Part shown: one piece after another, positions 1 through 24,241 of the stretch
Numbering within the stretch: the stretch's first letter is position 1
How the letters are laid out: each line of letters begins with the position of its first letter
From: a virus
Reading direction: 5' to 3' (one strand)
Virus record (IMG/VR): IMGVR_UViG_3300032073_000223
Coordinates: 1 to 25,394 of that record
DNA: 25,394 bases
Position numbers and translations under genes: made by a program
The notes under the pieces: generated by a model
The model's database searches: none
Told to the model about the DNA's origin: nothing
What the model saw: the letters and a program-made list of their open reading frames with translations, nothing else

Positions 1-26
1 TATTGCAGCATAAAAGGGAAATTATT

Positions 27-146
27 ATGACTAATGACGAAATTAAATCGCTATACGATAGCAATATAAATTTAACTCTGGCTGAATTATCGGCAATCAC
101 TGGTAAATCAATAAAGCAATTAAAGAAAATATTATTAAATAAATAA
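27..146 (+). CDS. Tiny HTH-like phage protein (39 aa)
   Basis: This is a 39-residue reading frame from ATG, preceded by an AAGGGA ribosome-binding site at about 15-20. Its stop lies 9 bases before the next start, inside the next gene's AAGGGG site. Residues about 17-37 (LTLAELSAITGKSIKQLKKI) look like the two helices of a small helix-turn-helix, with LAELSAITG as a plausible positioning helix. That would fit a small DNA-binding regulator, but at this length the motif is only suggestive. It is the first of three short AT-rich genes read in the same direction. The function is unknown to me. The coding call rests on the ribosome-binding site, the tight spacing and the codon use it shares with its neighbours. 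Confidence 0.55.
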   Translation: MTNDEIKSLYDSNINLTLAELSAITGKSIKQLKKILLNK

Positions 147-155
147 GGGGATAAA

Positions 156-452
156 ATGAATAATTATTGTATTTTTGAAGTTTATAACGATCACGGCGGT
201 TTATATACGTCATTCGCTGCTAATTTTGTTAGCCGCGGAGTTAAACACTCTCAATCAATGATTGATAATTTTTGCAGTGTTTATAAGGCTGCCAGCAATA
301 GGCACGACTATAAAATAAACTTTCAGGTTTTCTTTAATACTACAAACCCGGCTTTTATGGCTAATCAGTTGAAAGTTTACCGCGGTAAGGTATCCGGTTA
401 TACCAGCCACCAAATAGCTAATAAGAGTGATTTAATCTCAACTACTGTATAA
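156..452 (+). CDS. Hypothetical phage protein (98 aa)
   Basis: The gene starts at ATG with AAGGGG five bases upstream. It encodes 98 residues with no transmembrane segment, signal peptide or motif I recognise. The composition is mixed and aromatic-rich (YCIFEVYNDHGG at the N terminus, INFQVFF in the middle), which suggests a compact alpha/beta domain. It is the second of three small AT-rich genes in a probable transcription unit that ends at the terminator near 786-811. Codon use is strongly A/T-ending (AAT, TTA, ATA), unlike the structural genes further on. That fits an early or accessory gene rather than a virion gene. The role is unknown. Confidence 0.6.
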   Translation: MNNYCIFEVYNDHGGLYTSFAANFVSRGVKHSQSMIDNFCSVYKAASNRHDYKINFQVFFNTTNPAFMANQLKVYRGKVSGYTSHQIANKSDLISTTV

Positions 453-466
453 TAAAGGGGTTTTCT

Positions 467-733
467 ATGCGTATTAATAAAGAACATATTGACGCGGCAA
501 TTATTGATTTAAATATTGCAACCGGTAATAAAGCCGGCCATTTTTTACTCACTGAATCAGGATTAATTAAAACCGGATATAAGTTTAGGCAATCAGCGAA
601 TCAATATATAATTGAATATATAAAGCCGGGGATTAATAAGCCGGTCCTAATAGCGCGATACAATACTAAAAAAGAATTATTCAATAGCCTACAATTAACA
701 ATCAATATACTAGAGCGGTATAAAAGAGAATAG
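467..733 (+). CDS. Hypothetical phage protein (88 aa)
   Basis: The ATG start has AGGGG six bases upstream, and 14 bases separate it from the preceding stop. The 88-residue product is lysine- and isoleucine-rich. An N-terminal helix (about residues 5-18) is followed by what looks like a short beta region (KTGYKF, QYIIEYIKPG, KPVLIARYN) and a C-terminal helix, LFNSLQLTINILERYK. No catalytic or membrane motif is visible and I do not recognise the family. Three copies of AAGCCGG fall inside this gene. It is the last gene before a strong intrinsic terminator, so it ends the left-hand unit. Confidence 0.6.
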   Translation: MRINKEHIDAAIIDLNIATGNKAGHFLLTESGLIKTGYKFRQSANQYIIEYIKPGINKPVLIARYNTKKELFNSLQLTINILERYKRE

Positions 734-1080
734 CCTAAACCCGGGGCTTTATATCCCTTCACTGTATACAAGTATATAACCTATTAGCCGGCATTAAGCC
801 GGTTTTTTTTTGTCGCATTGCTTTATAAACCACAATCAATTAAACTCAAAAACATTAAATAGATTATTTGTCGCGCCACTATAGGATGCCCCAAAATAAG
901 CGCGTATAAGCTTTAATATTTAGCTATGTATTTCTATTGCTAAGCCGGTAGTATTCAGTAGGCGGCGATATACAGCCAGCTAGGGTATCTAGAATGCAAC
1001 AAGGGGAGGGGTTACCCGAATCAATAGCGAGATGCGGCGTTAGGAATACACCCCATAAATTTTTATTGGAAAAATGACTT
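734..1080 (+). other. Non-coding gap upstream of terminase; possible packaging-site region
   Basis: This 347-base stretch has no convincing open reading frame on either strand. It contains the terminator at 786-811, two copies of AAGCCGG (796-802 and 942-948), a GGCGGCGA octamer at 961-968 that matches part of the lambda cohesive-end core, and a purine-rich run, AAGGGGAGGGG, near 1000-1010. I see no tRNA and no clear sigma-70 promoter. In cos phages the packaging site commonly lies just upstream of the small terminase gene, which is exactly where this gap sits. That assignment is positional inference only. Confidence 0.3.
786..811 (+). terminator. Rho-independent terminator
   Basis: A CCGGC / GCCGG stem (788-792 with 798-802) closes a five-base loop, ATTAA. 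A-U and G-U pairs extend it outward, and it is followed by nine T residues (803-811). It sits about 50 bases after the stop of the 88-residue gene and would end the left-hand small-gene unit before the terminase operon. Confidence 0.85.
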
Positions 1081-1437
1081 ATGAGTAAACGTGGAAGGCC
1101 GATGGTAGAGTTTGATTATGATGAGTTATATGAGTTATCAAAGACTCATTGCTCCTTTGTGGACTTAGCTAAGTTCTTTAACTGTTCTGAGACTACTGTT
1201 AATGACAGATACCGTGACGACCCCGAATTTAAGACTGCGGTGGATAGAGGTCGCTTTGAGGCTATCAAAGGCCTTCGTAGACGACAGTTAGAGCTAGCAA
1301 TGGATGGCAACACCCAAATGGCTATCTGGCTCGGTAAGCAGCTCTTAGGGCAGACTGATCGTGTTGATGTTGACCAATTATCCCGTGTAGAGCCGATTTC
1401 TATCGAAATAGTCAATCCTGACGGCACTTTATCGTAA
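1081..1437 (+). CDS. terS: Terminase small subunit
   Basis: This is the DNA-recognition subunit of the packaging motor. It binds the phage packaging site and delivers DNA to the large subunit, whose gene follows directly. The 118-residue length is short but normal for the family. Residues about 11-47 form a helix-turn-helix (FDYDELYELSKTHCSFVDLAKFF followed by CSETTVNDRYRDDPEF). A helical region, GLRRRQLELAMDGNTQMAIWLGKQLLGQ, corresponds to the oligomerisation segment typical of small terminases. The ATG has only a weak GGA upstream. The gene is identified by its domain pattern together with its position before a clear large terminase. Confidence 0.85.
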   Translation: MSKRGRPMVEFDYDELYELSKTHCSFVDLAKFFNCSETTVNDRYRDDPEFKTAVDRGRFEAIKGLRRRQLELAMDGNTQMAIWLGKQLLGQTDRVDVDQLSRVEPISIEIVNPDGTLS

Positions 1438-1448
1438 AAAATAAATTT

Positions 1449-1466
1449 TCCGCTACGCGGATTTTT
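1449..1466 (+). terminator. Weak hairpin and T-run between terminase subunits (attenuator-like)
   Basis: TCCGC and GCGGA (1449-1453 and 1457-1461) pair around a three-base loop, TAC, followed by five T residues (1462-1466). The stem is short and the T-run overlaps the leader of the large terminase gene, so it would at most reduce transcription. It could also act at the RNA level near that gene's ribosome-binding site. Confidence 0.4.
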
Positions 1467-1482
1467 GGGAGCTTTTTGCTTG
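1461..1482 (+). repeat. 22-base leader repeat, copy 1 (RBS plus TTG start of terL)
   Basis: The segment consists of A, five T, GGGAGC, five T, GC and the TTG start codon. It matches 23806-23827 at 21 of 22 positions. It spans the Shine-Dalgarno site and initiation codon of the large terminase, with the ribosome-binding site framed by two T-runs. The first T-run is also the tail of the 1449-1461 hairpin. Confidence 0.8.
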
Positions 1483-2718
1483 GCTAAACTGACACCGACA
1501 AAACCTCAGTTCGATTATATCAACTCTACGGCTAAGTTCCCAGCGTTAGTTGCGGGTTTCGGTGCAGGTAAGACTGAGGCGGCTGTACAGAGATGCATCA
1601 TCGGCAAGTTAAGGAATCCCACTACCAACCGGGGTTTCTATGAGCCGACCTACGATTTAATCCGTATGATTGCGTGGCCTCGCTTTGAGGAGATACTCAC
1701 AGACCTCAACATCCCCTATAAACTCCATAAATCACCCCTTAATTACATAGACTTAGGGGCTTATGGACAAATAATCTTCCGCTCTATGGATGATGTAAAC
1801 AGAATCATCGGTTATGCCCACGCAGATGCGGATATAGACGAATTAGATACCCTGAAAGAGTCTACTGCTGCCGCAGCATTCAGAGCTATCGTTGCTCGTA
1901 ATCGAGAAGTCAAACCCAGCGGTGAAGTCAACACTGTAGGAGTGACCACTACCCCGGAAGGCTTTAAGTTCGTGTATAAAACGTGGAAGAAAGACCCCTT
2001 ACCCGGTTTCGAGCTCATACAAGCCCCAACAATGTCTAATCCACACCTTCCAGACGATTATGTGGATAACTTACGCGCTATTTACCCCAATAACCTACTC
2101 ACAGCGTATTTAAACGGTGAATTCGTTAACTTAACCCAAGGTACGGTCTATAACGGCTACAACCGAGATACCAATCAGTCAAAAGAAGAGATTACACGCT
2201 TCGATCACCTTATGGTGGGTATGGACTTTAACGTAACCAATATGTCTGCCGTTGTTTTCGTTAATAGGGGTGGCGTTTACCACGCAGTACACGAATTAAC
2301 AGGGATTTACGATACACCGAATATGATTCACACACTTAAGACTAAGTGGCCTGACCATAACATCGCTATCTACCCTGATGCCTCTGGCGCATCCAGAAAA
2401 ACCGTCAATGCGAGTATTTCTGACATAACACTCTTAGAATCCGCTGGTTTAGAGTGTAGAGCACCCAAAAAGAACCCATTTATCAAAGATAGGGTGATGG
2501 CTGCTAACGCAGCTTTTGAATCTTGTCAAGTTATGGTAAATTCAGACAAATGTCCCGAATTAGCGAGTAGTTTAGAGCAATTATGCTACGATAATAACGG
2601 TATGCCCGATAAAACGAGTGGTCTTGATCACTTAATCGATGCCGCAACTTATCCTATTGCCTTTGAATTGCCCATCATTAAACCTATAGCGGCTGTGCCG
2701 TTCAAATTTGCGATCTAA
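1480..2718 (+). CDS. terL: Terminase large subunit (ATPase-nuclease)
   Basis: This is the packaging motor that translocates and cuts DNA into the capsid at the portal. I chose the TTG at 1480 because GGGAG (1467-1471) sits eight bases upstream; an in-frame TTG at 1465 overlaps that site and has none of its own. The 412-residue product has a Walker A at residues 26-33 (GFGAGKTE), an acidic Walker B at about 117-121 (ADIDE) and a coupling motif near 154-158 (GVTTT). The C-terminal RNase H-like nuclease has acidic residues at D249 (GMDF), D300 (YPDASG) and D383/D386 (GLDHLIDA). Length and motif order are complete. The leader and start share 21 of 22 bases with those of the lysozyme gene. Confidence 0.93.
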   Translation: MAKLTPTKPQFDYINSTAKFPALVAGFGAGKTEAAVQRCIIGKLRNPTTNRGFYEPTYDLIRMIAWPRFEEILTDLNIPYKLHKSPLNYIDLGAYGQIIFRSMDDVNRIIGYAHADADIDELDTLKESTAAAAFRAIVARNREVKPSGEVNTVGVTTTPEGFKFVYKTWKKDPLPGFELIQAPTMSNPHLPDDYVDNLRAIYPNNLLTAYLNGEFVNLTQGTVYNGYNRDTNQSKEEITRFDHLMVGMDFNVTNMSAVVFVNRGGVYHAVHELTGIYDTPNMIHTLKTKWPDHNIAIYPDASGASRKTVNASISDITLLESAGLECRAPKKNPFIKDRVMAANAAFESCQVMVNSDKCPELASSLEQLCYDNNGMPDKTSGLDHLIDAATYPIAFELPIIKPIAAVPFKFAI

Positions 2719-2720
2719 TT

Positions 2721-4145
2721 ATGAGTGTTGATACTAAAAATCCAGAATACGAAACTTATGTACACGAATGGGAATCCGTTCAAGACTGCTGTGATGGCCA
2801 GCGAGCCATAAAGTCTAAGAATGTCAGATACTTAAAGCCGATGGAGGGTGTGAGCTCGAGAGATAATCGGTATTTAAACTATTTGAACCGCGCTGTCTTT
2901 GTTAACTTCACAGGAAAAACCCGTGAGGGATTAACTGGTGCTATCTTCCGCAATAAGCCGGATTTCTTACTACCACCCGAATTAGAGTACCTAGAATCTA
3001 ATGCAGACGGTGCGGGGGAGTCTTTGGTCAGTCTAGCGAAAGATGTGACCGGAGAAGTCATTGCAAAAGGCCGACACGCCTTACTTGTGGACTACCCACA
3101 GATTGAAGAGAACCTCAGTCTCGAGGAATTCAACCTCATCCAGCCAAAAGCAACAATTAATCGCTACAATTGCGAAGATTTCATCAACTGGCGTGTTGAT
3201 GTCATCAATGGTAACAAATTATTAACCTTAGCTGTCCTTTGTGAAGCCTATGACAGCGATGAAGACGAATTTACCTACGAAGAGTCTAAACAATACCGAG
3301 TTTTGCGTCTAAGAGATGGTGCTTATACCCAACAGTTATATAGAGATGACGAACCTATAACTCCTGAGTATATGCCTAAGAAATCTGACGGATCACCGTT
3401 TGAATTTATCCCATTATTCATAATTGGTAGCGAAAATAACGATGCGACTGTTGATGTGCCGCCTCTAGGTGATATTGCGGCCATAAACATTGCTCATTAC
3501 CGTAATTCTGCTGATTTAGAAGAAAACTGTTTCGTCCACGGTCAACTAACGCTCGGTGTGTCGTCTTCGATGTCCTTAGCGCAATTCCAAGAGGCCAATC
3601 CTGACGGAATTATGGTTGGATCAATGGCGGGTCACTTCTTAGGTGAGTCTGGGGGCTTTTCCTTTGTGCAAGCGTCTGAAAATCAACTTGCTGACCGTTT
3701 GATGGAGCGAAAAGAAGATCAGATGCGTAAATTGGGCGCAAGAATGATTGCTTTGACCTCTACTAAGACCGCAACACAGACATTGATCGAAGCTGCTGGC
3801 GAAACTTCAATAATGACCACGATTTCTAAGAATGTGAGTGAGGGTATCGCTAAGTGTTTGGAGTGGTGCGGGATGTTTATGGGTTCAAACCAAGAAACAC
3901 GCTTTGCCCTATCAACCAAGTTCTTCGATGAGGTTGCTGATCCTCAAATGTTGATGGCAGCAATGCAGTTGAACGAAGCAGGTATTCTTGCTAAGTCTGA
4001 TATGCAGAACCTAGCCCGGTCACAAGGTGTAGTGGCTGAATTGCGATCAAATGATGACATTGATGCTGATTTAGGTGAAGAAAATCAACAAACTGACCAA
4101 ATAATACCTCAAACTTTGACAAATAAACCAGAGGGTGTTATATAA
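2721..4145 (+). CDS. Portal protein (DUF4055-like)
   Basis: This is the ring through which DNA enters and leaves the capsid and on which the terminase docks. The 474-residue protein matches the DUF4055 portal-like pattern as I remember it. The N terminus has a tryptophan/cysteine-bearing segment and then KSKNVRYLKPMEG; RDNRYLNYLNRAVFVNFTGKT and REGLTGAIFRNKP follow; and GRHALLVDYPQ is the conserved central strand. The C-terminal half is helical. The ATG lies two bases after the terL stop without a good Shine-Dalgarno site, which implies translational coupling. The acidic, glutamine-rich C terminus (about 450-474) looks disordered. Position between terminase and scaffold supports the call. Confidence 0.88.
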   Translation: MSVDTKNPEYETYVHEWESVQDCCDGQRAIKSKNVRYLKPMEGVSSRDNRYLNYLNRAVFVNFTGKTREGLTGAIFRNKPDFLLPPELEYLESNADGAGESLVSLAKDVTGEVIAKGRHALLVDYPQIEENLSLEEFNLIQPKATINRYNCEDFINWRVDVINGNKLLTLAVLCEAYDSDEDEFTYEESKQYRVLRLRDGAYTQQLYRDDEPITPEYMPKKSDGSPFEFIPLFIIGSENNDATVDVPPLGDIAAINIAHYRNSADLEENCFVHGQLTLGVSSSMSLAQFQEANPDGIMVGSMAGHFLGESGGFSFVQASENQLADRLMERKEDQMRKLGARMIALTSTKTATQTLIEAAGETSIMTTISKNVSEGIAKCLEWCGMFMGSNQETRFALSTKFFDEVADPQMLMAAMQLNEAGILAKSDMQNLARSQGVVAELRSNDDIDADLGEENQQTDQIIPQTLTNKPEGVI

Positions 4146-4153
4146 CAACTTCT

Positions 4154-4173
4154 GCCACTGGGTGGCTTCTTTT
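4154..4173 (+). terminator. Possible weak terminator after portal gene
   Basis: GCCAC (4154-4158) pairs with GTGGC (4162-4166) around the loop TGG, followed by TTCTTTT. It lies nine bases after the portal stop and before the scaffold ribosome-binding site. The T-run is interrupted, so partial read-through is expected. Confidence 0.5.
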
Positions 4174-4191
4174 ATAACTAGGGGTTATAAG

Positions 4192-4869
4192 ATGATTAAG
4201 TACAATGTAAGTGAACAAGAATTTTCAACTTTAGACGAATCACAGCAGGGGTTATATTCGCAGGGCGATGATGGCTTCACGTTAAATGTTGAAGGTGTGC
4301 CGAAAGAAGACGTAAGCGGTCTGAAGAAGAAAATTGATGAGTTGTTGACTGAGAAAAAAACAGCACAGCAAAAAGCAATTGAAGCTGAAGAATTAGCTAA
4401 GGCTGAATCGGCTGAAAAGTTAAGAAAAGCAAATGACTATGAGCAACTGTATAACAGTTCTGAGTCAGAAAGAGAAAAAGCCTCGAAAGAGTTAGCTGAA
4501 TTAAAGGCTACGATTGACAGGCAGAAGGTATCAAATGAAGCGACTGATGTGGCCTTTCAACTCACGAAAGACCCAGCAAGAGCTAAATTGCTTACTGAAC
4601 AGATTTCTACACGCCTTGCGCTGGTAGATGGCGAGGTAAGAGTGTTGGATGGTAGTGGAAACCTTACTGTCAGCACTATTAACGAATTGACCTCTTCAAT
4701 TAAAGCGGAATATCCGTTTTTGATTGATGGGTCGCAAGCTGCCGGGGGCGGTGCAACAGGTGGAAGCAGCGGGGCTGGGGATACCAAACAAGTAAGTCGT
4801 CAAGATTTTGAATCGATGGATGCGTCTAAGCGTATGAAGTTTGTTAAGTCTGGCGGCAAAATTATTTAA
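4192..4869 (+). CDS. Capsid scaffolding protein
   Basis: This protein directs procapsid assembly and is lost before DNA filling. The ATG at 4192 was chosen because AGGGG (4180-4184) precedes it by seven bases; an in-frame ATG at 4135 lies inside the portal gene and upstream of a hairpin. The 225-residue product is highly charged. Residues about 38-110 form a long Lys/Glu/Ala coiled coil, followed by a smaller ordered region, a Gly/Ser linker (AAGGGATGGSSGAG) and a basic C-terminal tail, MDASKRMKFVKSGGK, of the kind that scaffolds use to touch coat protein. No protease motif is seen. Its place directly before the major capsid gene supports the call. Confidence 0.82.
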   Translation: MIKYNVSEQEFSTLDESQQGLYSQGDDGFTLNVEGVPKEDVSGLKKKIDELLTEKKTAQQKAIEAEELAKAESAEKLRKANDYEQLYNSSESEREKASKELAELKATIDRQKVSNEATDVAFQLTKDPARAKLLTEQISTRLALVDGEVRVLDGSGNLTVSTINELTSSIKAEYPFLIDGSQAAGGGATGGSSGAGDTKQVSRQDFESMDASKRMKFVKSGGKII

Positions 4870-4890
4870 TTATTTTTTTGGAGAACCAAA

Positions 4891-6027
4891 ATGGCTTATA
4901 ACACCACAATCGATGCCGATTTAATGTCGGACATCTACGTTGCCGCTGATGTAGTTGGTCAGGAAGCAGTCGGCTTCATCCCTTCCGTTACTATGAATGC
5001 CGAAAGCACTCGTGCTGGTAAAGGTGACTTTATCCGCGCTGCATTCACTCAAGAAGCTAGCCTTGGCGACATTGCTGAGTCTATGACTATCGCTGATCCT
5101 TCGGCTGTAACTATCGATGAGAAATCATTGCAAATGAGCAATGCTAAATCTGCTAAGTTCAGCTTAAGCGGTGAAGATACTCGTGGTCTTTCTAACTCTG
5201 GCTTATACAACACTGTTTACGGTGATTTAGTTGCTCAAGGTATGCGTAAGCTTATCAACGAAATGGAAAGCGACTTATTTTTAGCTGCTAAAAACGGTGC
5301 TTCACGCGCAACTGACAGCACTTTAGGCTCTACATTGAACTGTATTGCTTCTGCTCGTCAGATTCTTGTTGATAACGGCTGTCCTACTGACGACTTAAGT
5401 TTAGTTGCAAACACTACTGATGGTGTTTTAATCCGCAACAACGCTAACTTGTTAAGTGCAAACCAAGCTGGTACTGACGCTGTTCGTGATCAAGGCATCT
5501 TGATTCCTGTTCACGGCTTGAATGTTCGTGAGTCTTCTCAGATTGCTACTCACACAAAAGGTACTTTAGGAAGCAGTCCTTTAACTGATGTTACTGACGC
5601 TGTTGACGCAACCTCTATTGCCATTAACGGTGGTACTGGAACTATTGTTGCTGGTGATGTTGTTCAGTTTGGCGGAGCAGGTAACAAGCACGTTGTTGGT
5701 ACTGGTACTGCTGATGCTTCTGGTGGCACAATTGTTCTTAACCAAGGCTTGTTAGCTGAAGTTGCTAATGATACTGCTGTTGCAATCAATGCAGACTACC
5801 TCGGTAGCTTTGCCTTCCACCGTAGAGCAATTGAGCTTGCTGTTCGCGCTCCAGCGATGCCAGCAGGTGGCGATGCCGCTACTGATGCAGTAACTGTCCA
5901 AGACCCACGCACTGGTCTAGTCTTTGAAGTACGAATCTATAAAGGCTACCACACCAATATGATTGAAGTTGGTGCTGTTTGGGGCGTTAAAGCTTGGAAG
6001 TCTAACTTCATCGCAACAATCATTTAA
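4891..6027 (+). CDS. Major capsid protein (P22-coat-like, HK97 fold)
   Basis: This is the main shell subunit. Its ATG has GGAGA seven bases upstream. The 378 residues begin with a typical coat N terminus (ADLMSDIYVAADVVGQEAVGF). Helical material around 105-160 fits the spine region, and the family-like signature FAFHRRAIELAVRAP lies at about 307-321. A Gly/Thr/Val-rich stretch at about 222-300 looks like a beta-barrel insertion, comparable to the insertion domain of P22-type coats. No N-terminal delta domain needing proteolysis is evident, in line with the separate scaffold. Codons are strongly biased to GCT, GGT and CGT, as expected for the most highly expressed virion gene. A strong terminator follows. 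Confidence 0.9.
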   Translation: MAYNTTIDADLMSDIYVAADVVGQEAVGFIPSVTMNAESTRAGKGDFIRAAFTQEASLGDIAESMTIADPSAVTIDEKSLQMSNAKSAKFSLSGEDTRGLSNSGLYNTVYGDLVAQGMRKLINEMESDLFLAAKNGASRATDSTLGSTLNCIASARQILVDNGCPTDDLSLVANTTDGVLIRNNANLLSANQAGTDAVRDQGILIPVHGLNVRESSQIATHTKGTLGSSPLTDVTDAVDATSIAINGGTGTIVAGDVVQFGGAGNKHVVGTGTADASGGTIVLNQGLLAEVANDTAVAINADYLGSFAFHRRAIELAVRAPAMPAGGDAATDAVTVQDPRTGLVFEVRIYKGYHTNMIEVGAVWGVKAWKSNFIATII

Positions 6028-6040
6028 TCTAGGTAGTGCT

Positions 6041-6091
6041 TAGCCGTCCTGTGGGGTTTCCCTCCCTTTCCCTGCGGGGCGGCTATTTTTT
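6041..6091 (+). terminator. Intrinsic terminator after major capsid gene
   Basis: TAGCCG (6041-6046) pairs with CGGCTA (6080-6085), with further G/C-rich pairing possible inside the loop, followed by six T residues (6086-6091). It stands between the capsid stop and the next ribosome-binding site at 6093-6098, so downstream genes need read-through or antitermination. Confidence 0.8.
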
Positions 6092-6103
6092 CAAGAGGTA
6101 TAT

Positions 6104-6592
6104 ATGGCGGTTAGTGCGATAGTACAAGAAACCGGTCAGCAATCAACAACAGCTAACTCTTATGTTACTGCTGCGGGTTATGATCAGTATCTTGAAAACC
6201 GTTATGCTCGTACTGCTCTAGGTGATGTTGACGCGAACCGAAGAAATATATTTCGTGCAACCACTTACTTTGAGTCACTACAGTTTATCGGTTATAAAGC
6301 TACTGACGAACAAGCTTTGCAGTGGCCTAGAAGTCAAATTTTAATTGATGGTTACAGTTACACTTCTGAGGAAATACCCTCTGAGGTTTTGGCTGCAATC
6401 TACGAATTAGCCTACGGGTATGAGCAAGGATATGCTCCTGACGCGCCTATACAGCGCGAATCCCTAAAGGAGAAGATAGGTGAGATTGAAGTTGAATATA
6501 AAGCTTCAAGTGCTCATCGTGTTTTATTGCCAGCAGCATCACAGGCTCTTAGAAAGCTGGTTAAGAACCCTATGAGGGTTGTGAGGGCATAG
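6104..6592 (+). CDS. Head-tail connector (adaptor, DnaT-like family)
   Basis: This is probably the adaptor ring that sits directly below the portal. The 162-residue protein resembles phage neck proteins often annotated 'putative DnaT-like ssDNA-binding protein'. It has an N-terminal NSYVTAAGYDQYLENR segment, a helical ANRRNIFRATTYFESL block, the conserved LQWPRS motif at about 74-79, EEIPSEVLAAIYELAYGYEQG, and a basic C terminus, ALRKLVKNPMRVVRA. The LQWPR and EIP-x-EV-x-AAIYELA pattern is typical of such adaptors. AAGAGG lies five bases before the ATG. It leads a set of four neck genes in standard siphovirus order. I give the structural role over the DnaT label because of that context. Confidence 0.78.
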   Translation: MAVSAIVQETGQQSTTANSYVTAAGYDQYLENRYARTALGDVDANRRNIFRATTYFESLQFIGYKATDEQALQWPRSQILIDGYSYTSEEIPSEVLAAIYELAYGYEQGYAPDAPIQRESLKEKIGEIEVEYKASSAHRVLLPAASQALRKLVKNPMRVVRA

Positions 6593-6946
6593 ATGGCCTT
6601 TAATTACGCGCCTTTGGCGACAACAGCTACAAAATTAATCACCGACTTTGGTCAGTCAGTGACGTTTACACGTTTTTCTAGCGTCAATTACAACCCGGCT
6701 GCTGGAGTAGCTTCTAGTAGTCAAACTACTTATGACGCACAGGTAGTATTATTTGATCAGTTGAAAGTTGAGGATGGTGAAACTAATTTGCAGGTTAAAG
6801 AGTTCCCTGCATCAATGTCCTCATCGACAGCCCCTAAGATTGGTGATACTGCTACGATTAATTCAGAAAAGCTTAGGGTTGTTGAGATAAATCCAATACA
6901 ACCTGCAGCAACGGTGGTTTATTATGAGCTTCGACTCAGAAGTTAA
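6593..6946 (+). CDS. Head-closure / head-tail joining protein
   Basis: A 117-residue, mostly beta protein starts immediately after the previous stop (TAG then ATG), with GAGGG upstream. An early VTFTRFSSVNYNPAAG element, a middle YDAQVVLFDQLKVEDGE and a final LRVVEINPIQPAATVVYYELRLR resemble head-closure proteins of siphoviruses (SPP1 gp16 or lambda FII-like fold). These form the ring under the adaptor and plug the capsid. The assignment leans on size, beta character and position between adaptor and tail-completion genes. Its last 23 bases overlap the next gene. Confidence 0.65.
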   Translation: MAFNYAPLATTATKLITDFGQSVTFTRFSSVNYNPAAGVASSSQTTYDAQVVLFDQLKVEDGETNLQVKEFPASMSSSTAPKIGDTATINSEKLRVVEINPIQPAATVVYYELRLRS

Positions 6947-7316
6947 TGCCGCAATTGCGAAGATTGAAGAAGATGCTACAACTGCTGTTCGCAACAGGGT
7001 TACTGACGTTATGCACGGCATTGTTTATTATAATGGTCAGCGGGCATTTGATACTGGGCTTCTTGTTAACAGTTGGGAACCTTCTATCAACGAGCCTTTT
7101 ACAAATGAAGAAGGCAATGGTGCTGTTAACGATAGAAGTGGGCCGGAGTCTGTTAGACGAATACAACAGATTTATAAAAAGATAAATCTTGGCAATAAGG
7201 TTTATTTTACTAACAGTATTCCTTATGGAACAGATAATGAGCTAGGAACAGAGAAAATACGTCCAAGAAGGTTTTTAGGTCAGGCTGTGCAAGAAGGAGG
7301 CAAAGATATTAAATGA
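6924..7316 (+). CDS. Tail completion / neck protein (HK97 gp10-like)
   Basis: This 130-residue protein starts inside the 3' end of the head-closure gene (23-base overlap) and ends in an ATGA junction with the tail terminator gene. The N terminus is helical (SEVNAAIAKIEEDATTAVRNRV). The C-terminal part contains VYFTNSIPYGTDNELGTEKIRPRRFL, close to the 'N..PYA..vE.Gt...rp..Fl' pattern of HK97-gp10 and minor tail-completion proteins. I read that pattern as complete, with a tyrosine, a glutamate-glycine-threonine element and a proline-arginine segment. The likely role is joining the finished head to the tail. The family match is from memory. Confidence 0.72.
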   Translation: MSFDSEVNAAIAKIEEDATTAVRNRVTDVMHGIVYYNGQRAFDTGLLVNSWEPSINEPFTNEEGNGAVNDRSGPESVRRIQQIYKKINLGNKVYFTNSIPYGTDNELGTEKIRPRRFLGQAVQEGGKDIK

Positions 7317-7822
7317 GTGTTGATTACGGTTTAATAACGGAAAGCACTGATTTAACTGTAATTGGTGGTGCTACTGCTGATAACTCTAAATTTTTTCGTA
7401 ATATTCGTATTGCGTTAGAGAGTCAGTTTAATCAAATGGCCGATGATGCAAGTATTACCACAAGAGTTTTTGAAAATATAGAGTTTGATGTTACCTCGCT
7501 AGAAAAAGGCAACCTAACTAATGAGTGGGTAAGAGGTACAATAATACCTGCTGAGACAACAGCTTCGAGCTCAGGTACTATTGGTCGAGATTTGCATCAA
7601 GGTATATTTCAAATAGACTATTATAATAGGGTTGGGATTGGAGCTTATAGCGATAAGCTAGATAGTATAGCTAACGCTTTTAAAAGAGGCTCAAAATTAA
7701 GCGTGAATGACAATGTTGTTCGCATTCGTAACGTATCACTAGGCGTGGGGCGCAGAGATGGTGCATTTTTTGTTAGAAATATAGATGTATCTTATTTTGC
7801 GGTAACACCCGCTAGGAGTTAA
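7313..7822 (+). CDS. Tail terminator protein
   Basis: This is the likely ring that caps the tail tube and stops its growth. The 169-residue product has an alpha/beta layout: an N-terminal helical segment (FFRNIRIALESQFNQMADDASI), then strands separated by turns (FENIEFDVTSLEKG, EWVRGTIIPAETT, GIFQIDYYNRVG), a helix (SDKLDSIANAFKRGSKL) and a final VRNIDVSYFAVTPAR. That order is common in gpU-like terminators. Its ATG overlaps the previous stop, and AAGGAGG lies 12 bases upstream. The position directly before the tail tube gene is diagnostic in siphoviruses. Confidence 0.75.
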   Translation: MSVDYGLITESTDLTVIGGATADNSKFFRNIRIALESQFNQMADDASITTRVFENIEFDVTSLEKGNLTNEWVRGTIIPAETTASSSGTIGRDLHQGIFQIDYYNRVGIGAYSDKLDSIANAFKRGSKLSVNDNVVRIRNVSLGVGRRDGAFFVRNIDVSYFAVTPARS

Positions 7823-7824
7823 AA

Positions 7825-8766
7825 ATGGCAATAGCAAGTGGAACTAATGTAGTCATTGGTTTTAGAGAAGAAACAACGTATGGGACATCAGCCGGGGCAT
7901 CGAATGACTATGACATCATACCTTTTAAATCGGCAAGCTTGAGTCTAGCTAAGACCAATCACGAATCTGCCGTTATAACTGGTAATCGTGAAATGCAAGA
8001 TTTGGTTATGGGTGCTCACTCTGTTACTGGCGATATTGCGTTTGATTTAGCACACCAACCTGCATACCTTAAAATGATGCAAGCTGTGCTAGGAGAAGAT
8101 GCAGATGGAGCTGATACCGCTTACGGTGTTGGCAGCACTCGACAGTCATTTACTATATTGCAAGACTACAGCACTGACCTTGCAGCCGGAAATGATGTAC
8201 ATATTTTTACAGGTTGCGAGTTTAATACTTTCTCAATGACCATACCTGCTGACGGCCTTATTGAGTGTTCTGTTGGTATTGTTGGCGCAACAATGACCCC
8301 TGCGGCAGACACATTAGATGGAGATGGTCTGGATGACGATGGTAGTGAATACCTTGAGGCTAATGACCCTTACCACTCATCTAACGCTACGATTACAGGT
8401 GATTTTTCTGCTATTTGTACAGATTTGTCTTTAAGTGTCGAGAACGGGATTGAGACTACAAACATAGTTGGTAATACTGTGCCAATTCAGGGTGGAATCG
8501 GTAAATGTCGTGTAAGCGGCTCTCTTACTGCTCATTTCACTAGCAGCACTTTACTTCAGAAGTTTGTAGATAATGCCTCAAGCTCTTTAACAATCAAGTT
8601 TGGCGGTAATGATGCTGGCGGTATGAGCTTTACTATGGCTAAAATCATCTATACTACAGGTGCTGTAGAAATTGGTGGTGAGGGCTTATTATCTGTATCG
8701 ATGGACTTTGTTGCAGTCACAAATGGGACAGCCTCTACATTAGTAATTGATACCGACCTATCTTAA
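7825..8766 (+). CDS. Major tail (tube) protein
   Basis: Hexamers of this protein stack to form the tail tube. The ATG has AGGAG six bases upstream. The 313-residue protein begins with a pattern common in siphovirus tube proteins (SGTNVVIGFREETTYGT, about residues 5-21). A core (DIIPFKSASLSLAKTNHES), an extended hydrophilic region, and a C-terminal second beta domain (about 200-313; KCRVSGSLTAHFTS, LLSVSMDFVAVTNGT) follow. The acidic stretch LDGDGLDDDGSEYLEAND near 172-189 is probably an exposed loop and could bind a divalent cation. A strong hairpin terminator follows, mirroring the one after the capsid gene. Confidence 0.85.
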   Translation: MAIASGTNVVIGFREETTYGTSAGASNDYDIIPFKSASLSLAKTNHESAVITGNREMQDLVMGAHSVTGDIAFDLAHQPAYLKMMQAVLGEDADGADTAYGVGSTRQSFTILQDYSTDLAAGNDVHIFTGCEFNTFSMTIPADGLIECSVGIVGATMTPAADTLDGDGLDDDGSEYLEANDPYHSSNATITGDFSAICTDLSLSVENGIETTNIVGNTVPIQGGIGKCRVSGSLTAHFTSSTLLQKFVDNASSSLTIKFGGNDAGGMSFTMAKIIYTTGAVEIGGEGLLSVSMDFVAVTNGTASTLVIDTDLS

Positions 8767-8783
8767 TACGGTAGGTAAACTAT

Positions 8784-8808
8784 AGCCTCGCTGGGCGGGG
8801 CTTCATTT
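8784..8808 (+). terminator. Intrinsic terminator after tail tube gene
   Basis: AGCCTCGC (8784-8791) pairs with GCGGGGCT (8795-8802), one pair being G-U, around the loop TGG. It is followed by TCATTT. The stem is strong and the T-run imperfect. It lies between the tail tube stop and the GGGGG ribosome-binding site of the chaperone gene. Confidence 0.7.
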
Positions 8809-8824
8809 AATCCTTGGGGGATAT

Positions 8825-9196
8825 ATGAAACTAGACGAACTTTATACGACCGACTTACACGATGCAGGTGCAGAGGTAAGGATTTTAGACGGTGAGGGCA
8901 ACGAAACGGATTTATACATAACTGTAGTGGGTATGGATTCAAAAGCCTTCAGAGCGCACACCAAGAGGTATCAGAAAGCTTATTTAGAGTCTTTAAGAGA
9001 AAAGAAAGACTTTAGTGAGGAAGAGATGACGGTCAGGGGGTTAGTTGACTGCACATTGAGCTGGCGTGGCGTAGAAGAGAAGTTTAGTAAAAAGTTGTGT
9101 TCTGAATTGTATAGCAAAGCACCATATATCAGGGATCAAATTGATAACTTTATGGGCGACAGAGCAAATTTTACAAAAGCCAAACCGAAAAAATAA
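8825..9196 (+). CDS. Tail assembly chaperone G-like protein
   Basis: This is the upstream frame of the two-frame chaperone between tail tube and tape measure. Its position, size (123 residues) and overlap with a second frame match lambda gpG in layout. The N terminus (MKLDELYTTDLHDAGAEVRILDGEGNE, beginning at residue 1) resembles chaperones that carry a beta-rich head, and the C terminus is charged (ANFTKAKPKK). A GGGGG site lies four bases before the ATG. The gene ends with CCG-AAA-AAA-TAA. A six-A run next to the stop, with the -1 frame open through it, suggests that some ribosomes slip into the T frame. Confidence 0.75.
   Translation: MKLDELYTTDLHDAGAEVRILDGEGNETDLYITVVGMDSKAFRAHTKRYQKAYLESLREKKDFSEEEMTVRGLVDCTLSWRGVEEKFSKKLCSELYSKAPYIRDQIDNFMGDRANFTKAKPKK
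9166..9193 (+). promoter_or_regulatory. Candidate -1 ribosomal slippery region
   Basis: Two candidate sites lie in the short window where both frames are open. One is A-AAT-TTT at 9166-9172, which fits the X-XXY-YYZ heptamer rule in the upstream frame. The other is G-AAA-AAA-TAA at 9187-9196, a six-A run directly before the stop. I favour the second because it adjoins the stop codon, but cannot separate them from sequence. No strong downstream stem-loop is evident. Confidence 0.6.
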
Positions 9197-9519
9197 TCGA
9201 GTTTGGTAAGTGGATATTTTTTGCTAACGGTCGCACACCCGGGGCTAAGTCAACAAGATTAGATACTTGGAAAGCAATAGAGAGGATGACGGGTACAGCT
9301 CCACTGGAGTTAACTCGTCAGCCATTCCTAGATGACTGCTTGATGGGAGTCTGGGATGCATATTGCTTAATTGCTCAGGGCGTTGAAAACATAACGCTCC
9401 AAGACATAAAGGCGTATACTGATCTCTACGATGAACACTTAAGCATTTGGCAAATTGATGCAATTATGGGTCTTGATAGAGAAAGGCAGAAAGAATGGCA
9501 GACACAATCGCAAGGCTGA
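9193..9519 (+). CDS. T segment of G-T fusion, made by -1 frameshift
   Basis: The frame is open from about 9148 to the stop at 9519 with no good start codon near its beginning; the first ATG is at 9286 and has no clear ribosome-binding site. If ribosomes slip -1 at the six-A run (9188-9193), decoding continues ATA-ATC-GAG and gives about 108 extra residues after the 123 of G, a 231-residue G-T protein. The T part is helical (GKWIFFANG, RLDTWKAIERMTG, FLDDCLMGVWDAYCLIAQGVENITLQDIKAYTDLYDEHLSIWQIDAIMGL). In lambda-like phages G and GT bind the tape measure and recruit tube protein. Internal initiation at 9286 (77 residues) is the alternative. It overlaps the tape-measure start by 25 bases. Confidence 0.75.
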   Translation: MIEFGKWIFFANGRTPGAKSTRLDTWKAIERMTGTAPLELTRQPFLDDCLMGVWDAYCLIAQGVENITLQDIKAYTDLYDEHLSIWQIDAIMGLDRERQKEWQTQSQG

Positions 9520-11798
9520 TATTTCAAGCAGAAACTAAAGAGCTTCAAGCAGCCACAAACAGATTAAAAGAGATAGGCAAGGTATCTAAGTCTACTGCGT
9601 CTAGTGTTCGCTCTTTAAACAAAGCATTTAATGACCAGCACAAAGCCTTAAAGGGCGAGCTCCAAACAACCAGTAGTGCCACGCAGAAAAGAAAAGAGTT
9701 CGGCAGGGCTACTAAAAACACCGCATCTGAGATTAAAAAGTCAACGGTTATTGTTGACGCGCAGGGTAATGCCCTTAAGAAACTTAAAGACACTGAGAGC
9801 AAAGTCACTCAAGGTACTCAGAAAAACACCGAAGCAACAAAAATAGCTAACGCGGTAAGAAGAGCTGAGATAAAGGCGTATCAAGAGAACGCTAAAAGAA
9901 AAGAAAAAGCGGCATTAGCTAGCAATAAATTAACAAAAAAAGAAAAAGAGCTGACAAAAACCAACGAAAAGTTAGCTAACAGCTTTAGAAACGCATCGAC
10001 AGCAACGGCTGCACTTCAAGGCCCGCTCAATGGCCTCTCTGGTCGATTGTCTTTTATAGCCACAGGTTTAGGTAGAATAGGTGTATCTGGCCTAGCAGCC
10101 TCTGCTGGTTTTGTTGGCTTAGCCTTTGCTGCAAGAAACTCACTTAAAGTATTCCAAGAATACGAATTGCAGATGATAAAAGTAGACACGCTTGTCAGAG
10201 CTACAGGCGGAACTGCTGGTTTCACATCCAATCAATTAAATGAAATGGCTGTTGGACTAGCCACAGCAACGATGGCATCTGCTAATGAGATGCGTAACGC
10301 ACAGGGCATACTTTTAACATTTAAAGCAATATCTAATGATGTTTTTAAATCTGCTCTTGAACTTACAGTTGATGTTGGCGCAGCAATGAATCAGACAGCA
10401 TCATCAGGTGCTAAGCAGTTAGGTAAAGCTTTAGAAGACCCTGCCAGAAATATGACTGGCTTGACTCGCGCAGGTATATCTTTCACAGCACAAGAAAAAG
10501 AAAGAATAACCGTATTGCAACGAAGTGGCGATTTGCAGGGCGCACAAGCAATCATTATTAAAACATTGCAGGATCAGTTGGGTGGAGCGGGTACAGGTGG
10601 TGGTTTAGCTGGCGCGGCAGATTTGGTAGCAGATAACTTTGAAAGATTAAACATTGCCATCGCTGAAGAGTTTGGGTTTGCCGGTCTTGCAACAAAAGCA
10701 ACTATGGGTCTTGCAAACGCTCTGGGATTTTTAGCTGATAAGATAACAGAGACCCCAGAAGAGGAGTTAGCTCGGCTTTTAGGTACAGATACAGCAGCTT
10801 CTACAAGTACGGGCGGCAGGTCAAAGAATGTAGACTTTTCTAAGACATCTAGTGGTGAGCCAGCAACAAAGCAAGCTTCTAGCTCAAGAGGTGGTAGATC
10901 AAAAGATGTAGAGTTTGACCCGTTACAAGCAAGAATTAAACAGCTTCAAGACATTATAGCTGAAGAGGAAAAAGCACAAGCAGCAGCAGCCGTTGCAGCA
11001 GAAGCAAATCAAGTTAGAATTAAAGAAGAGGCTAGGATTGAAAGAGAGATACTAGCTGAAAATATGAACCTTAAAGTTATGGAGCTTGAAGAGCATAACT
11101 TAAGAATACAAGGGTTTGAAGAAGAAGCTAATTTACTTAAATTTGAACGTCTAACTTTACAAAATGATTTAGAGCTTGAGGCGGCCAGAAAAAAACACGG
11201 TGATCTTGAAGAGCTTGAAAGAATACATCAGAATACAAAGAACAATATTATTACTGAACAAAATTTAGCTGAAATGAAAATAGCAGATAAGCGTAATAAA
11301 ATTAAAAAAGCTGGCGATAAACAAGCTTTATCTGACACTAAAAAAGTTCTTGGACACTTTGCTCAAGAGAGCAAAAAAGCATTTAAAATTAAAAAGATGG
11401 TAGATATAGCAGAAGCGGTTGTTTCTGGGCATAAGTCAGCACTTGCAGCTTTTGAGGCTGGTATGAAGACAGGCGGCCCTACTGCTCCCGCAGTTGCAAA
11501 AGCTTATATGACCGCATCAATTGCAGCAACAGCCGTACAAATTGCAGCAATAAAATCAACTACATTTTCTGGCGGCGGCGGTGGTGGCGGCGGTGGTGGT
11601 GGCGGCGGTGGTGCTGCTGGAGCGGCGTCTGCTGCGCCAATACAACCTGCGGCTAATGACGAGATAGTAGCTGCTCCTCAAGCTATTAACGTAACGGTAG
11701 ATGGCTCTATTGACCCAACCGGGGCAAGACGTATCATAGAGGCCATAAACGAAGCCACTGAAGATGGCTTAGAAATTAATGCATTGGTAGGTACATAA
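9495..11798 (+). CDS. Tail tape measure protein
   Basis: This protein sets tail length and is ejected ahead of DNA. Its 767 residues begin within the GT 3' end, with AAAGG before the ATG. The first 170 residues are Lys/Glu/Thr-rich and largely helical. A glycine/alanine-rich hydrophobic region follows at about 184-215 (IATGLGRIGVSGLAASAGFV). A domain at 220-375 is of the lambda-H/prophage-tape-measure type (VDTLVRATGG, LEDPARNMTGLTRAGISFT, RITVLQRSGDLQGAQAIIIKTLQ). Two copies of GGRSK-[ND]-V-[DE]-F occur in the linker, then a coiled coil at about 475-600. A run of 14 glycines at residues 693-706 precedes the alanine/proline-rich C terminus. By the usual 1.5 Å per residue rule the tail would be about 115 nm. 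Confidence 0.9.
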   Translation: MADTIARLIFQAETKELQAATNRLKEIGKVSKSTASSVRSLNKAFNDQHKALKGELQTTSSATQKRKEFGRATKNTASEIKKSTVIVDAQGNALKKLKDTESKVTQGTQKNTEATKIANAVRRAEIKAYQENAKRKEKAALASNKLTKKEKELTKTNEKLANSFRNASTATAALQGPLNGLSGRLSFIATGLGRIGVSGLAASAGFVGLAFAARNSLKVFQEYELQMIKVDTLVRATGGTAGFTSNQLNEMAVGLATATMASANEMRNAQGILLTFKAISNDVFKSALELTVDVGAAMNQTASSGAKQLGKALEDPARNMTGLTRAGISFTAQEKERITVLQRSGDLQGAQAIIIKTLQDQLGGAGTGGGLAGAADLVADNFERLNIAIAEEFGFAGLATKATMGLANALGFLADKITETPEEELARLLGTDTAASTSTGGRSKNVDFSKTSSGEPATKQASSSRGGRSKDVEFDPLQARIKQLQDIIAEEEKAQAAAAVAAEANQVRIKEEARIEREILAENMNLKVMELEEHNLRIQGFEEEANLLKFERLTLQNDLELEAARKKHGDLEELERIHQNTKNNIITEQNLAEMKIADKRNKIKKAGDKQALSDTKKVLGHFAQESKKAFKIKKMVDIAEAVVSGHKSALAAFEAGMKTGGPTAPAVAKAYMTASIAATAVQIAAIKSTTFSGGGGGGGGGGGGGGAAGAASAAPIQPAANDEIVAAPQAINVTVDGSIDPTGARRIIEAINEATEDGLEINALVGT
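11571..11612 (+). repeat. GGC/GGT triplet tract encoding 14 glycines
   Basis: Fourteen consecutive GGN codons, only GGC and GGT in irregular alternation, lie in frame near the 3' end of the tape-measure gene. The mix of codons argues against simple slippage of a pure repeat. It encodes a flexible glycine linker. Confidence 0.85.
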
Positions 11799-12688
11799 TG
11801 GGCGCGATATTAGCAGAGAATGAGTTACATCACGCATATTGGCGGTCTGCCTCTAAGCCAGCTATCACAACTGTTTCTGGTGGTGAAAAGTCAGGCTTTG
11901 AGTTTGTTAATATGTTTGATAACAATGCTCATACATCTTTTAAAAACAACACAAATACGCAGAGTGTTATTTACTTTGATTTTGGCACAGCTAAGAATTT
12001 TAATGGATTTGCTATTTATGGACATAATCTCACCACATCGCAAGCAATCAAAATAGAATATAGTTTAGATAATTCCTCCTATACCACTTTTACTGATTCT
12101 GCTGTATATCCTGCGAATGGAGAAATCTCACCACCTAATAACAATGGCGAGGCATTTTGTGTCTATTTGAAGGGTCAATCAAACGTAGGTCGGTACTGGA
12201 AAATTACCACTATAGGTTGGGACACAAGCACTTTTATAACCACATTAGCTTTAGGTAGCTTTGTGGATAATGTAAACATATCTGCGCCATACACGATGCC
12301 TAGTTTTACACCACAAGAGGTATCCATTAAGAGAAATAATCAAGGAAATTTATTAAGCTCTGATGTTAGAAAGATACCGCAAAAGTTAAATATAAAGCTA
12401 ACCACATTGCAAGAGTCAGACCTTGATGCTACTCAAGTTGGGATTACAAATACAACAATCAATGGACTATTTAATACTTACTCATTTATTGATTATCTAG
12501 GCCACTTTGTCTCTAGATTTCCATTTTTTGTTTTGCACGATGATGGCGGTGATGGGAGTAATGCAGAAAAGAAAGCAGACAGGAACAAGGTTTATTTCTG
12601 CACTATTGATAAATCATTAAAACAACCTGCCTTTGCTTCACCTACTACTCTTAATTGGAGTATCAACGCTATAGGATATATATCGTGA
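11798..12688 (+). CDS. Distal tail / minor tail protein with discoidin-like domain
   Basis: The ATG overlaps the tape-measure stop (TAATG) and the gene ends in a GTGA overlap with the hub gene. The 296 residues hold an N-terminal region (about 35-140) resembling a discoidin / F5/8 type C beta-sandwich: IYFDFGTAKNFNGFAIYGHNL, IKIEYSLDNSSYTTF and GRYWKITTIG are its recognisable strands. Such domains often bind carbohydrate. The rest (ISAPYTMPSFTPQEVSIKRNNQG onward) is beta-rich and likely docks to the hub; FPFFVLHDDGGDGSNAEKKADRNKVYFC is a notable strand-turn-strand. In gene order it occupies the place of a distal tail protein or lambda M-like tip protein. The exact role is inferred. Confidence 0.68.
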   Translation: MGAILAENELHHAYWRSASKPAITTVSGGEKSGFEFVNMFDNNAHTSFKNNTNTQSVIYFDFGTAKNFNGFAIYGHNLTTSQAIKIEYSLDNSSYTTFTDSAVYPANGEISPPNNNGEAFCVYLKGQSNVGRYWKITTIGWDTSTFITTLALGSFVDNVNISAPYTMPSFTPQEVSIKRNNQGNLLSSDVRKIPQKLNIKLTTLQESDLDATQVGITNTTINGLFNTYSFIDYLGHFVSRFPFFVLHDDGGDGSNAEKKADRNKVYFCTIDKSLKQPAFASPTTLNWSINAIGYIS

Positions 12689-15906: not shown

Positions 15907-15907
15907 T

Positions 15908-16534: not shown

Positions 16535-16548
16535 TATTGTGGCTGATT

Positions 16549-17010: not shown

Positions 17011-17058
17011 CTGATTTATTTGGTGAAAATGCGGCAGATTCAATTGATTAGGTGATTT

Positions 17059-18700: not shown

Positions 18701-18714
18701 CAGGGCAAATTGAT

Positions 18715-18912
18715 ATGACCGTTAAAGAATTACTAGCTAAATTAGAAAAGCACGAAGAAATATGCACTGTTAAGTTAGAAAACATCAAGGAACGCTTAGA
18801 TGATGGGAAAGAAAAGTTTGACTTCTTGCAAAAGTCCATCTGGGGGTTGTACGGGATTATTATTACTATTACTGTCGGTGCTTCTTTTACTCTTGCCCAA
18901 TTTATCTCATAG
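18715..18912 (+). CDS. Small coiled-coil protein with one C-terminal membrane segment (XhlA-like)
   Basis: The ATG at 18715 follows CAGGG by nine bases. The 65-residue product has a charged, heptad-like helix (about 5-40; LLAKLEKHEEICTVKLENIKERLDD) and one hydrophobic segment at about 42-62 (IWGLYGIIITITVGASFTLA), then a short polar end. That layout is typical of XhlA/haemolysin-type lysis accessory proteins and of some class III-like holins. A true XhlA identity cannot be shown from sequence alone. A separate holin candidate lies at 23327. Its last 113 bases are also read in another frame as the start of the next gene. Confidence 0.6.
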   Translation: MTVKELLAKLEKHEEICTVKLENIKERLDDGKEKFDFLQKSIWGLYGIIITITVGASFTLAQFIS

Positions 18913-23240: not shown

Positions 23241-23330
23241 ATGCCACAAGGTAAAGGCACATACGGATCAAAAATGGGCAGACCGCCTAAAAAAGCAAAG
23301 AAAAAAGCACCCAAGAAGGGTAAGAAATGA
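23241..23330 (+). CDS. Tiny Lys-rich conserved phage peptide (29 aa)
   Basis: The frame has GAGG at 23229-23232 and overlaps the next ATG by ATGA. It encodes MPQGKGTYGSKMGRPPKKAK followed by a lysine-rich tail. The pattern 'PxGxGTYGSxxGRPPKK' recurs as a short phage-encoded peptide, so this is likely a genuine gene. GRPPKK resembles an AT-hook core (GRP flanked by basic residues), which suggests minor-groove DNA binding. Virion-packaged or condensation roles are possible but not shown. Confidence 0.65.
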   Translation: MPQGKGTYGSKMGRPPKKAKKKAPKKGKK

Positions 23331-23800
23331 ATTTTGATGCTATAAAGAGCGTTATTGGTGCTGTTGCACCCACATTAGGCACGGCTTTAGGTGGTCCTTT
23401 AGGGGGAACTGCTGCAAAGGCGATTAGTGCTGTATTGGGGTGCGATAGTGACCCTAAATCGCTAGAAAAAGCTATTCAGCAAGCAACACCAGAGCAACTA
23501 ACTGAGATAAAAAAGGCGGAGCTTGATTTTGAAACTCGTTTGGCAGAGCTTGATGTGGATATATTTGCACTTGAGACAGCAGATATACAGGATGCTAGAA
23601 AGTCTTTTGCAGGCGATTGGACTCCTCGCGTTTTTGGTCTTTTTAGTCTTGTGGGGTTTCTGGGGTACATTTTTCTCGTTACTGTACAACCACCAGACGC
23701 TAACTCTGACACTATTGTGTCTCTTGTTTTGGGTTATCTGGGTGGATTAGTTAGCGGTATCAGCAGTTTCTATTTCGGTGCTAGTCACAAAACCGATTAA
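23327..23800 (+). CDS. Holin candidate (GTA-type, membrane protein)
   Basis: The gene overlaps the previous stop by ATGA, with AAGGG upstream. The 157-residue protein has an N-terminal amphipathic glycine/alanine region (about 5-38; IGAVAPTLGTALGGPLGG), then a charged helix (DPKSLEKAIQQATPEQLTEI, EIKKAELDFETRLAELDVDIFALETADIQDAR). Two membrane segments follow, at about 102-120 (RVFGLFSLVGFLGYIFLVTV) and 130-150 (TIVSLVLGYLGGLVSGISSFYF). The helix ending in 'D..DAR.S...DWTPR' followed by paired membrane helices is the layout of the GTA_holin_3TM family. It lies directly before the lysozyme, so a holin that releases it is the natural reading. Confidence 0.75.
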   Translation: MNFDAIKSVIGAVAPTLGTALGGPLGGTAAKAISAVLGCDSDPKSLEKAIQQATPEQLTEIKKAELDFETRLAELDVDIFALETADIQDARKSFAGDWTPRVFGLFSLVGFLGYIFLVTVQPPDANSDTIVSLVLGYLGGLVSGISSFYFGASHKTD

Positions 23801-23805: not shown

Positions 23806-23827
23806 ATTTTTGGGAGCTTTTTCCTTG
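23806..23827 (+). repeat. 22-base leader repeat, copy 2 (RBS plus TTG start of lysozyme)
   Basis: This copy differs from 1461-1482 at a single base (CC in place of GC before the TTG). It covers the ribosome-binding site and TTG start of the lysozyme gene. The copies are 22 kb apart and are followed by unrelated coding sequence. Confidence 0.8.
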
Positions 23828-24241
23828 ATAGATTTAGAAAGACTCAAGGCGCAGCTTGTGCGCCACGAAGGAATGGTATTGACCACCTACGAGTGTACAG
23901 CCGGGAAAACCACGCTGGGCGTTGGAAGAAATGTCCAAGAGGTCGGGATAACCGAAGCTGAAGCGATGCATCTTCTTTCCAATGATATAGCCAGAGTCGC
24001 TGGTGAGTGCTACGGGGCATTCTCTTGGTTTAAAGACCTCGATGAGCTCCGAAAAGAAGCAGTGATTAATATGGTGTTTAATCTGGGCCTGACTCGATTC
24101 AAGCAGTTCAAGAAAACTATATCTTACATTGAAGCCGGAGAGTTTCAGCTCGCGGGTGCTGAAGCCCTCGACTCTAAATGGGCTAAGGACGTTGGTAATC
24201 GCGCTGTAGAGGTTGCTAATCAACTGGCTGGAAATCCATAA
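23825..24241 (+). CDS. Endolysin, T4-type lysozyme (GH24)
   Basis: It cleaves the peptidoglycan sugar chain to release virions. I start at the TTG at 23825, eight bases after GGGAG; an in-frame TTG at 23810 overlaps the site. The 138 residues have the GH24 catalytic layout with Cys in place of Asp: E15 (RHEG), C24 (YECT) and T30 (KTTLGVG), the E-8x-C-5x-T variant known in some phage lysozymes. Then comes LRKEAVINMVFNLGLTRFKQFKKTISYI, the conserved C-terminal lobe, and the last helix, VGNRAVEVANQL. No signal or anchor is visible, so it needs the holin. The gene ends 26 bases into the converging minus-strand gene. Confidence 0.92.
   Translation: MIDLERLKAQLVRHEGMVLTTYECTAGKTTLGVGRNVQEVGITEAEAMHLLSNDIARVAGECYGAFSWFKDLDELRKEAVINMVFNLGLTRFKQFKKTISYIEAGEFQLAGAEALDSKWAKDVGNRAVEVANQLAGNP

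Follow-up and report, generated by a model that had tools for sequence, protein, structure and literature searches.

A family-specific 22-23-nt repeat ahead of the large terminase and lysozyme genes of uncultured phages resembles a control site

Why should the large terminase and lysozyme genes of one uncultured phage begin within almost the same 22 nucleotides? The question arises from the window, the whole 25,394-nt stretch of viral DNA analyzed here (IMG/VR record IMGVR_UViG_3300032073_000223), which has the following features at the two sites.

1081..1437, plus strand: terS, small terminase
1449..1461, plus strand: short hairpin TCCGC-TAC-GCGGA followed by a T-run, between terS and unit 1
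1461..1482, plus strand: first copy of the repeat unit, immediately 5' of the terL start and extending into it (core TTTTGGGAGCTTTTTGCTTG from 1463)
1467..1471, plus strand: GGGAG, Shine-Dalgarno-like part of unit 1
1480..2718, plus strand: terL, large terminase (Terminase_6N/6C, phrog_2), with TTG 1480-1482 from the unit
23327..23800, plus strand: 157-aa holin-like protein (phrog_1544, function unknown), with its stop 5 nt before unit 2
23806..23827, plus strand: second copy of the repeat unit, between the holin-like gene and lysozyme (core TTTTGGGAGCTTTTTCCTTG from 23808)
23812..23816, plus strand: GGGAG, Shine-Dalgarno-like part of unit 2
23825..24241, plus strand: lysozyme (Phage_lysozyme, phrog_7 endolysin), with TTG 23825-23827 from the unit

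The pairing potential of GGGAG was judged from the general anti-Shine-Dalgarno sequence, and we infer from its position that the 157-aa product is holin-like. Elsewhere in the window, positions 21462-22616 encode a predicted 384-aa exonuclease with a weak Sigma70_r4_2 match at the N-terminus (E 5.2e-05, under the curated cut-off) and another weak match, to Metallophos_2.

Results

Two copies in the window

Direct comparison of positions 1461-1482 (ATTTTTGGGAGCTTTTTGCTTG) and 23806-23827 (ATTTTTGGGAGCTTTTTCCTTG) bears out the original prediction that they agree at 21 of 22 bases, being one base apart, and that each encloses an RBS-like GGGAG and the TTG start codon of terL or lysozyme; 8 nt separate the end of GGGAG from TTG at either site. 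The TerL alignments of relatives begin at the TTG codon at 1480. A degenerate 21-mer with up to 3 mismatches allowed has three matches in the window versus 0.01 expected from shuffles, the third being a weak minus-strand site with 3 mismatches (23297-23317), and there is no further copy. Some exact repeat of at least 17 nt is also present in 8 of 200 dinucleotide shuffles of the window, so that the pair alone is only mildly unlikely. The earlier argument that chance identity is improbable is thus weak within the window alone and holds through conservation in relatives, which is the reason why we accept the repeat as real.

The repeat unit and the terL junction

Comparison of relatives identified the element as a single unit of an asymmetric, family-specific repeat of 22-23 nt, about TTTTGGGAGSTNTTNNNYTR, which belongs to one family of uncultured phages and looks like a control site. 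Its fixed loci are an early array of 3-4 units, one or two units 5' of terL, and one or two units 5' of lysozyme; some genomes have a further unit 5' of terS or at the NinB junction. In the viral collection, five stretches contain the exact 21-mer TTTTTGGGAGCTTTTTNCTTG, three of them 5' of terL and two 5' of lysozyme. A 16-mer retrieved 47 stretches from viral_contigs, eight of which are terL or lysozyme sites of the family by context (the other 39 were set aside), and the bacterial genome collection yielded four exact matches in unrelated contexts. No cultured phage matches a 118-nt array query, and the cultured terL relatives are below 60% identity. Conservation ahead of the same two genes, the check proposed at the outset, was found in relatives, where the element carries both the Shine-Dalgarno sequence and the start codon.

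At terL, 80 loci were retrieved, and 78 were long enough upstream to be scored (L071 and L082 were too short). GGGAG[CG]T lies within 50 nt of the terL start in 18 of the 20 testable loci with at least 85% identity, the two close relatives lacking an intact unit being L055 (degenerate) and L070 (none), and in none of the 58 loci under 80% identity. GGGAGS precedes the start codon, which is ATG or TTG, by 3, 7, 11 or 14 nt, and thus conservation is stronger for the core than for its spacing. The genes terS and terL overlap in 50 of 57 empty loci under 80% identity (six others have small gaps, and one was unreadable), as they do, by 1 nt, in the unit-free L070. Of the 18 filled loci, the 16 that were measurable have gaps of 25-118 nt; in L054 the gap is exactly 25 nt and contains the unit. 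Unit-bearing junctions are open by about one or two unit lengths, the unit bringing the Shine-Dalgarno sequence, together with the TTG codon at lysozyme and in part of the terL genes. The hairpin and T-run ahead of the terL unit are present in some terL clades and missing from others.

Several family members have a G-run followed by (T)NACC 5' of terS (window positions ~1003-1016, G001 just after 19552, and G022), and several family contigs start close to terS/terL; together these features point to a possible packaging (cos/pac) site.

The lysozyme junction with and without the unit

Among the best 42 of 80 lysozyme loci (L231-L272), 16 are filled and 26 are empty. The remainder, L273-L310 with less than ~50% identity, lie outside this count, and seven of them inspected by eye show no unit. 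The holin-like and lysozyme genes overlap by 4 to 11 nt in 21 of the 23 empty loci with a recognizable holin-like gene, L245 and L254 having gaps instead, whereas the measurable filled junctions have a gap of 17-24 nt with one unit or 40-42 nt with two. The spacing from GGGAGS to TTG is 7 nt in all nine genomes checked. The empty, overlapping junction is presumably the ancestral state. On the lysozyme tree (46 rows, 20 of them filled) the filled/empty label needs four changes (3-5 over bootstrap replicates), of which well-supported branches force just one.

The pattern TTTTGGGAGST is absent from all 18 empty records searched, with sizes up to 50 kb; of the other records in this search, 12 filled ones had been picked for having the unit, and a thirteenth, picked for its HTH gene, is without it. 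Seven large empty records (G038, G041, G043, G046, G048, G049, and G039, the latter covered for 20,000 of 21,950 bases) match the holin-like protein (64-84%) and lysozyme (56-68%) only, with no match to terL, terS, portal, capsid, tape measure, or the HTH gene. The lysis pair is thus common to other phages, and the unit tracks the genomes of the family and not the lysozyme gene. In the seven large records the pair is mostly formed by overlapping genes. Synonymous codon conservation in the holin-like gene (seven genomes aligned, one near-copy left out of the pair counts, three genomes dropped whose gene the start-codon search missed) does not rise beside the unit, nor was extended upstream regulatory conservation seen; hence the constrained stretch is the unit itself.

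Arrays, whole genomes, and orientation

Of 34 family records, 20 contain TTTGGGAGCTT, each on a single strand and several of them in tandem; the reversed control pattern had no match in the family records. A paired-unit scan returned 29 stretches, from which the arrays of L177, L187, L192, and L197 were set aside by eye as unrelated and L190 was left out. Arrays of 3-4 units are present in 11 records (G001, G008, G009, G014, G017, G020, G035, G036, G037, L185, and L191). Their units follow each other at a step of 22-23 nt, about two DNA turns, with one exception of 32 nt and one of 55 nt, and keep the TTTTGGGAG core with few exceptions. As judged from gene context (L191 left out, the contig of G020 beginning just before its array), the arrays occupy a non-coding divergent region between a leftward operon, headed by a small HTH gene, and rightward genes. 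No conserved reading frame follows the arrays read, and their units are far from any start codon. A sigma70-type promoter was seen by eye some 250-300 nt downstream of the array, which is thus probably not in the leader of that promoter. In G014 and G037, boxes CTGTATATATATACAG and CTGTGCAAAAACACAG, respectively, which we take to be LexA-like from the box consensus, lie between the array and the rightward genes, hinting at SOS control.

The ends of G001 and G017 overlap, giving circles of about 33.4 and 32.0 kb, and both genomes are probably complete. G001 has one unit at lysozyme, three in the early array, one at terL, and a weaker one ~100 bp before terS; G017 has two at lysozyme, four in the early array (one degenerate), and a truncated one at terL. 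These ~6-7 units at 3-4 loci all point one way in both genomes, and all copies at terL and lysozyme are in the sense direction. In G059 and G060, a full unit is located in the leftward operon, at the 3' terminus of a NinB-like gene and ~1.6-2.0 kb beyond the lysozyme unit; it is antisense to the local operon, yet has the same genome direction as all other units. This site rests on two records and is missing in the eight other genomes compared. Because only about five loci are independent, their common direction is weak evidence. The opposition of the NinB copy to local transcription favors a DNA site or a rightward-transcription signal over a pure RBS role.

Copies in non-initiation positions, named beforehand as the case that would speak against a translation-control element, were thus found in the arrays and at NinB. 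With arrays of 3-4 units in non-coding DNA and two antisense copies, the element is not a gene-start feature only, and pure translation control can be only part of the story. The suggestion that TTG reflects deliberately low initiation finds no support: TTG is part of the repeat unit, recurring in array units with no gene behind them, and need not mean weak initiation. Similarly, nothing points to binding of Hfq or S1, the single lysozyme site folding no better than shuffles.

Discussion

A polar operator and its rivals

We tentatively favor, at somewhat less than even confidence, a polar DNA operator resembling a stoperator and serving as RBS and start as well, because the constrained stretch is the unit itself. 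The unit would be a polar site for a putative DNA-binding factor controlling rightward transcription of the packaging and lysis genes, the early array would serve as a strong site near the operon head, and the RBS/start role may have been built into the operator when the terS/terL and holin/lysozyme overlaps were opened. Joint control of packaging and lysis by one factor would be plausible. It is possible, if rather doubtful, that the unit forms a cassette of operator and punctuation, in which a protein site, a Shine-Dalgarno sequence, and a start, with an upstream stop adjoining, were placed into overlapping gene pairs, including the shared lysis cassette, and brought packaging and lysis, together with the early array, under a single control point. 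If true, the lineage rewires imported genes through a single short site set where they join, and this would account for a shared lysis cassette passing under the control of a new phage; nature provides the gene pair both with and without the unit, a clean set for testing this.

Against the operator stand the ~3-5 loci per genome, compared to 20-30 sites in stoperator phages, and the constant 7-nt spacing at lysozyme, which is what a role in translation would demand. Nor did the candidates examined yield a binding protein. All 14 records searched lack a tyrosine integrase, so a lysogenic repressor is not obvious. The neighboring small HTH protein was rejected as the cognate binder: G027 has the HTH gene and no unit, the unit core is constant whereas the protein varies, with 46-63% identity to the first row of A2, and phage H6/1, which has the best HTH match among cultured phages, contains a single TTTTGGGAG match and no array.

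The main rival, which we regard as possible but less than probable, is a translation element like the Start-Associated Sequences (SAS), in which the Shine-Dalgarno sequence would act with its U-rich flanks and TTG to set TerL and lysozyme output jointly, perhaps through a protein of phage or host that binds them as RNA, the early array being a decoy or leader. It would account for the usable Shine-Dalgarno distance at both genes, the constant lysozyme spacing, the sense direction of every terL and lysozyme copy, and the independent start that the unit makes where other genomes have overlapping genes. However, the arrays lie outside genes and ahead of the likely rightward promoter (seen by eye), terL spacing varies while the core stays, conservation extends beyond the Shine-Dalgarno positions, the unit is antisense to local transcription in two records, and RNA folding is ordinary (z from -1.5 to +0.7), so that RNA structure was rejected as well.

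An RNA signal acting on rightward RNA polymerase, such as a put/nut-like antitermination or processing site, seems unlikely. The common rightward direction and the terminator-like hairpin with T-run directly 5' of the unit in several terL clades would suit it, but the lysozyme copies show no hairpin, the unit lacks a conserved stem, the early rightward promoter appears to come only after the array, and there is no Rfam match. Other readings tried and rejected are a sigma-70 promoter within the unit, since the terL unit contains no promoter-like site (the scan covered 1-19900, with the lysozyme unit outside) and no -10 element is conserved among units by eye, and an antisense RNA target, the complement CTCCCAAAA occurring 0 times in G001 and G017.

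We consider it quite unlikely that the unit is a short repeat of selfish or mutation-driven origin, inserting or expanding harmlessly at gene junctions. In favor of this are the occurrence of whole units, one or two per junction, their tandem expansion, and the opening of junctions by about a unit length, at lysozyme (17-24 or 40-42 nt) and at terL of L054 (25 nt); yet diverged clades retain the same few loci although the flanks change, only one direction is used, and among close terL relatives L070 alone lacks the unit outright, L055 being degenerate. Finally, two ordinary U-rich ribosome-binding sites alike by chance are highly improbable, since, despite the exact repeats found in 8 of 200 shuffles, this is contradicted by conservation of the element ahead of the same two genes in relatives and by its presence in arrays.

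Comparison with known systems

Iterons of replication origins are direct repeats about 22 bp apart. This role was rejected for the unit, which is also found at the late genes terL and lysozyme, a separate repeat being present at the replication gene. That other 22-nt tandem repeat, TCTAATGGTTGCAGGGGTGGGG, occurs in 3-4 copies at the replication-protein gene (G001 14215-14278, G017 27435-27514, and G014 1660-1739, in terL-strand coordinates); it likely represents lambda-O-like origin iterons and is a better origin candidate than the unit. Among the titles and abstracts listed in searches of open-licence PMC papers, none matched the motif or a like system.

The nearest systems are SAS in appearance and stoperators in layout. 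SAS of cluster K mycobacteriophages is a 13-bp sequence, GGGATAGGAGCCC, present in 11-19 copies in the non-structural half, mostly at ATG starts, and its role is described there as still open (PMC3203893). Like SAS in that account, the unit is a short asymmetric family-specific repeat with a Shine-Dalgarno core, located at terL and lysozyme just 5' of starts, mostly in one orientation, and conserved also at positions that have no pairing to 16S rRNA (PMC3203893). The single orientation is shared by the units, and start-codon proximity is seen at terL and lysozyme but not in the arrays of the 11 records or in the NinB copies. In contrast to SAS, the units are 22-23 nt long, occupy ~3-5 loci including terL and lysozyme, contain TTG, and form tandem arrays outside genes; the SAS consensus has no match in the window with up to 2 deviations.

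The stoperators of cluster A mycobacteriophages are 13-mers found in 20-30 copies per genome, at which a known repressor stops elongation (PMC6550527, PMC9283540). The resemblance to that description lies in asymmetric sites placed in an early control region and at short junctions between genes; the stoperator sites are oriented with transcription (PMC6550527, PMC9283540). Here, the sites are far fewer than 20-30 (the ~6-7 units of G001 and G017), no tyrosine integrase was found in the 14 records, and the candidates examined gave no binder; the units keep one genome direction throughout, but run against local transcription at NinB in G059 and G060. If the resemblance holds, these phages would add a family with a SAS- or stoperator-like system, apparently outside the mycobacteriophages.
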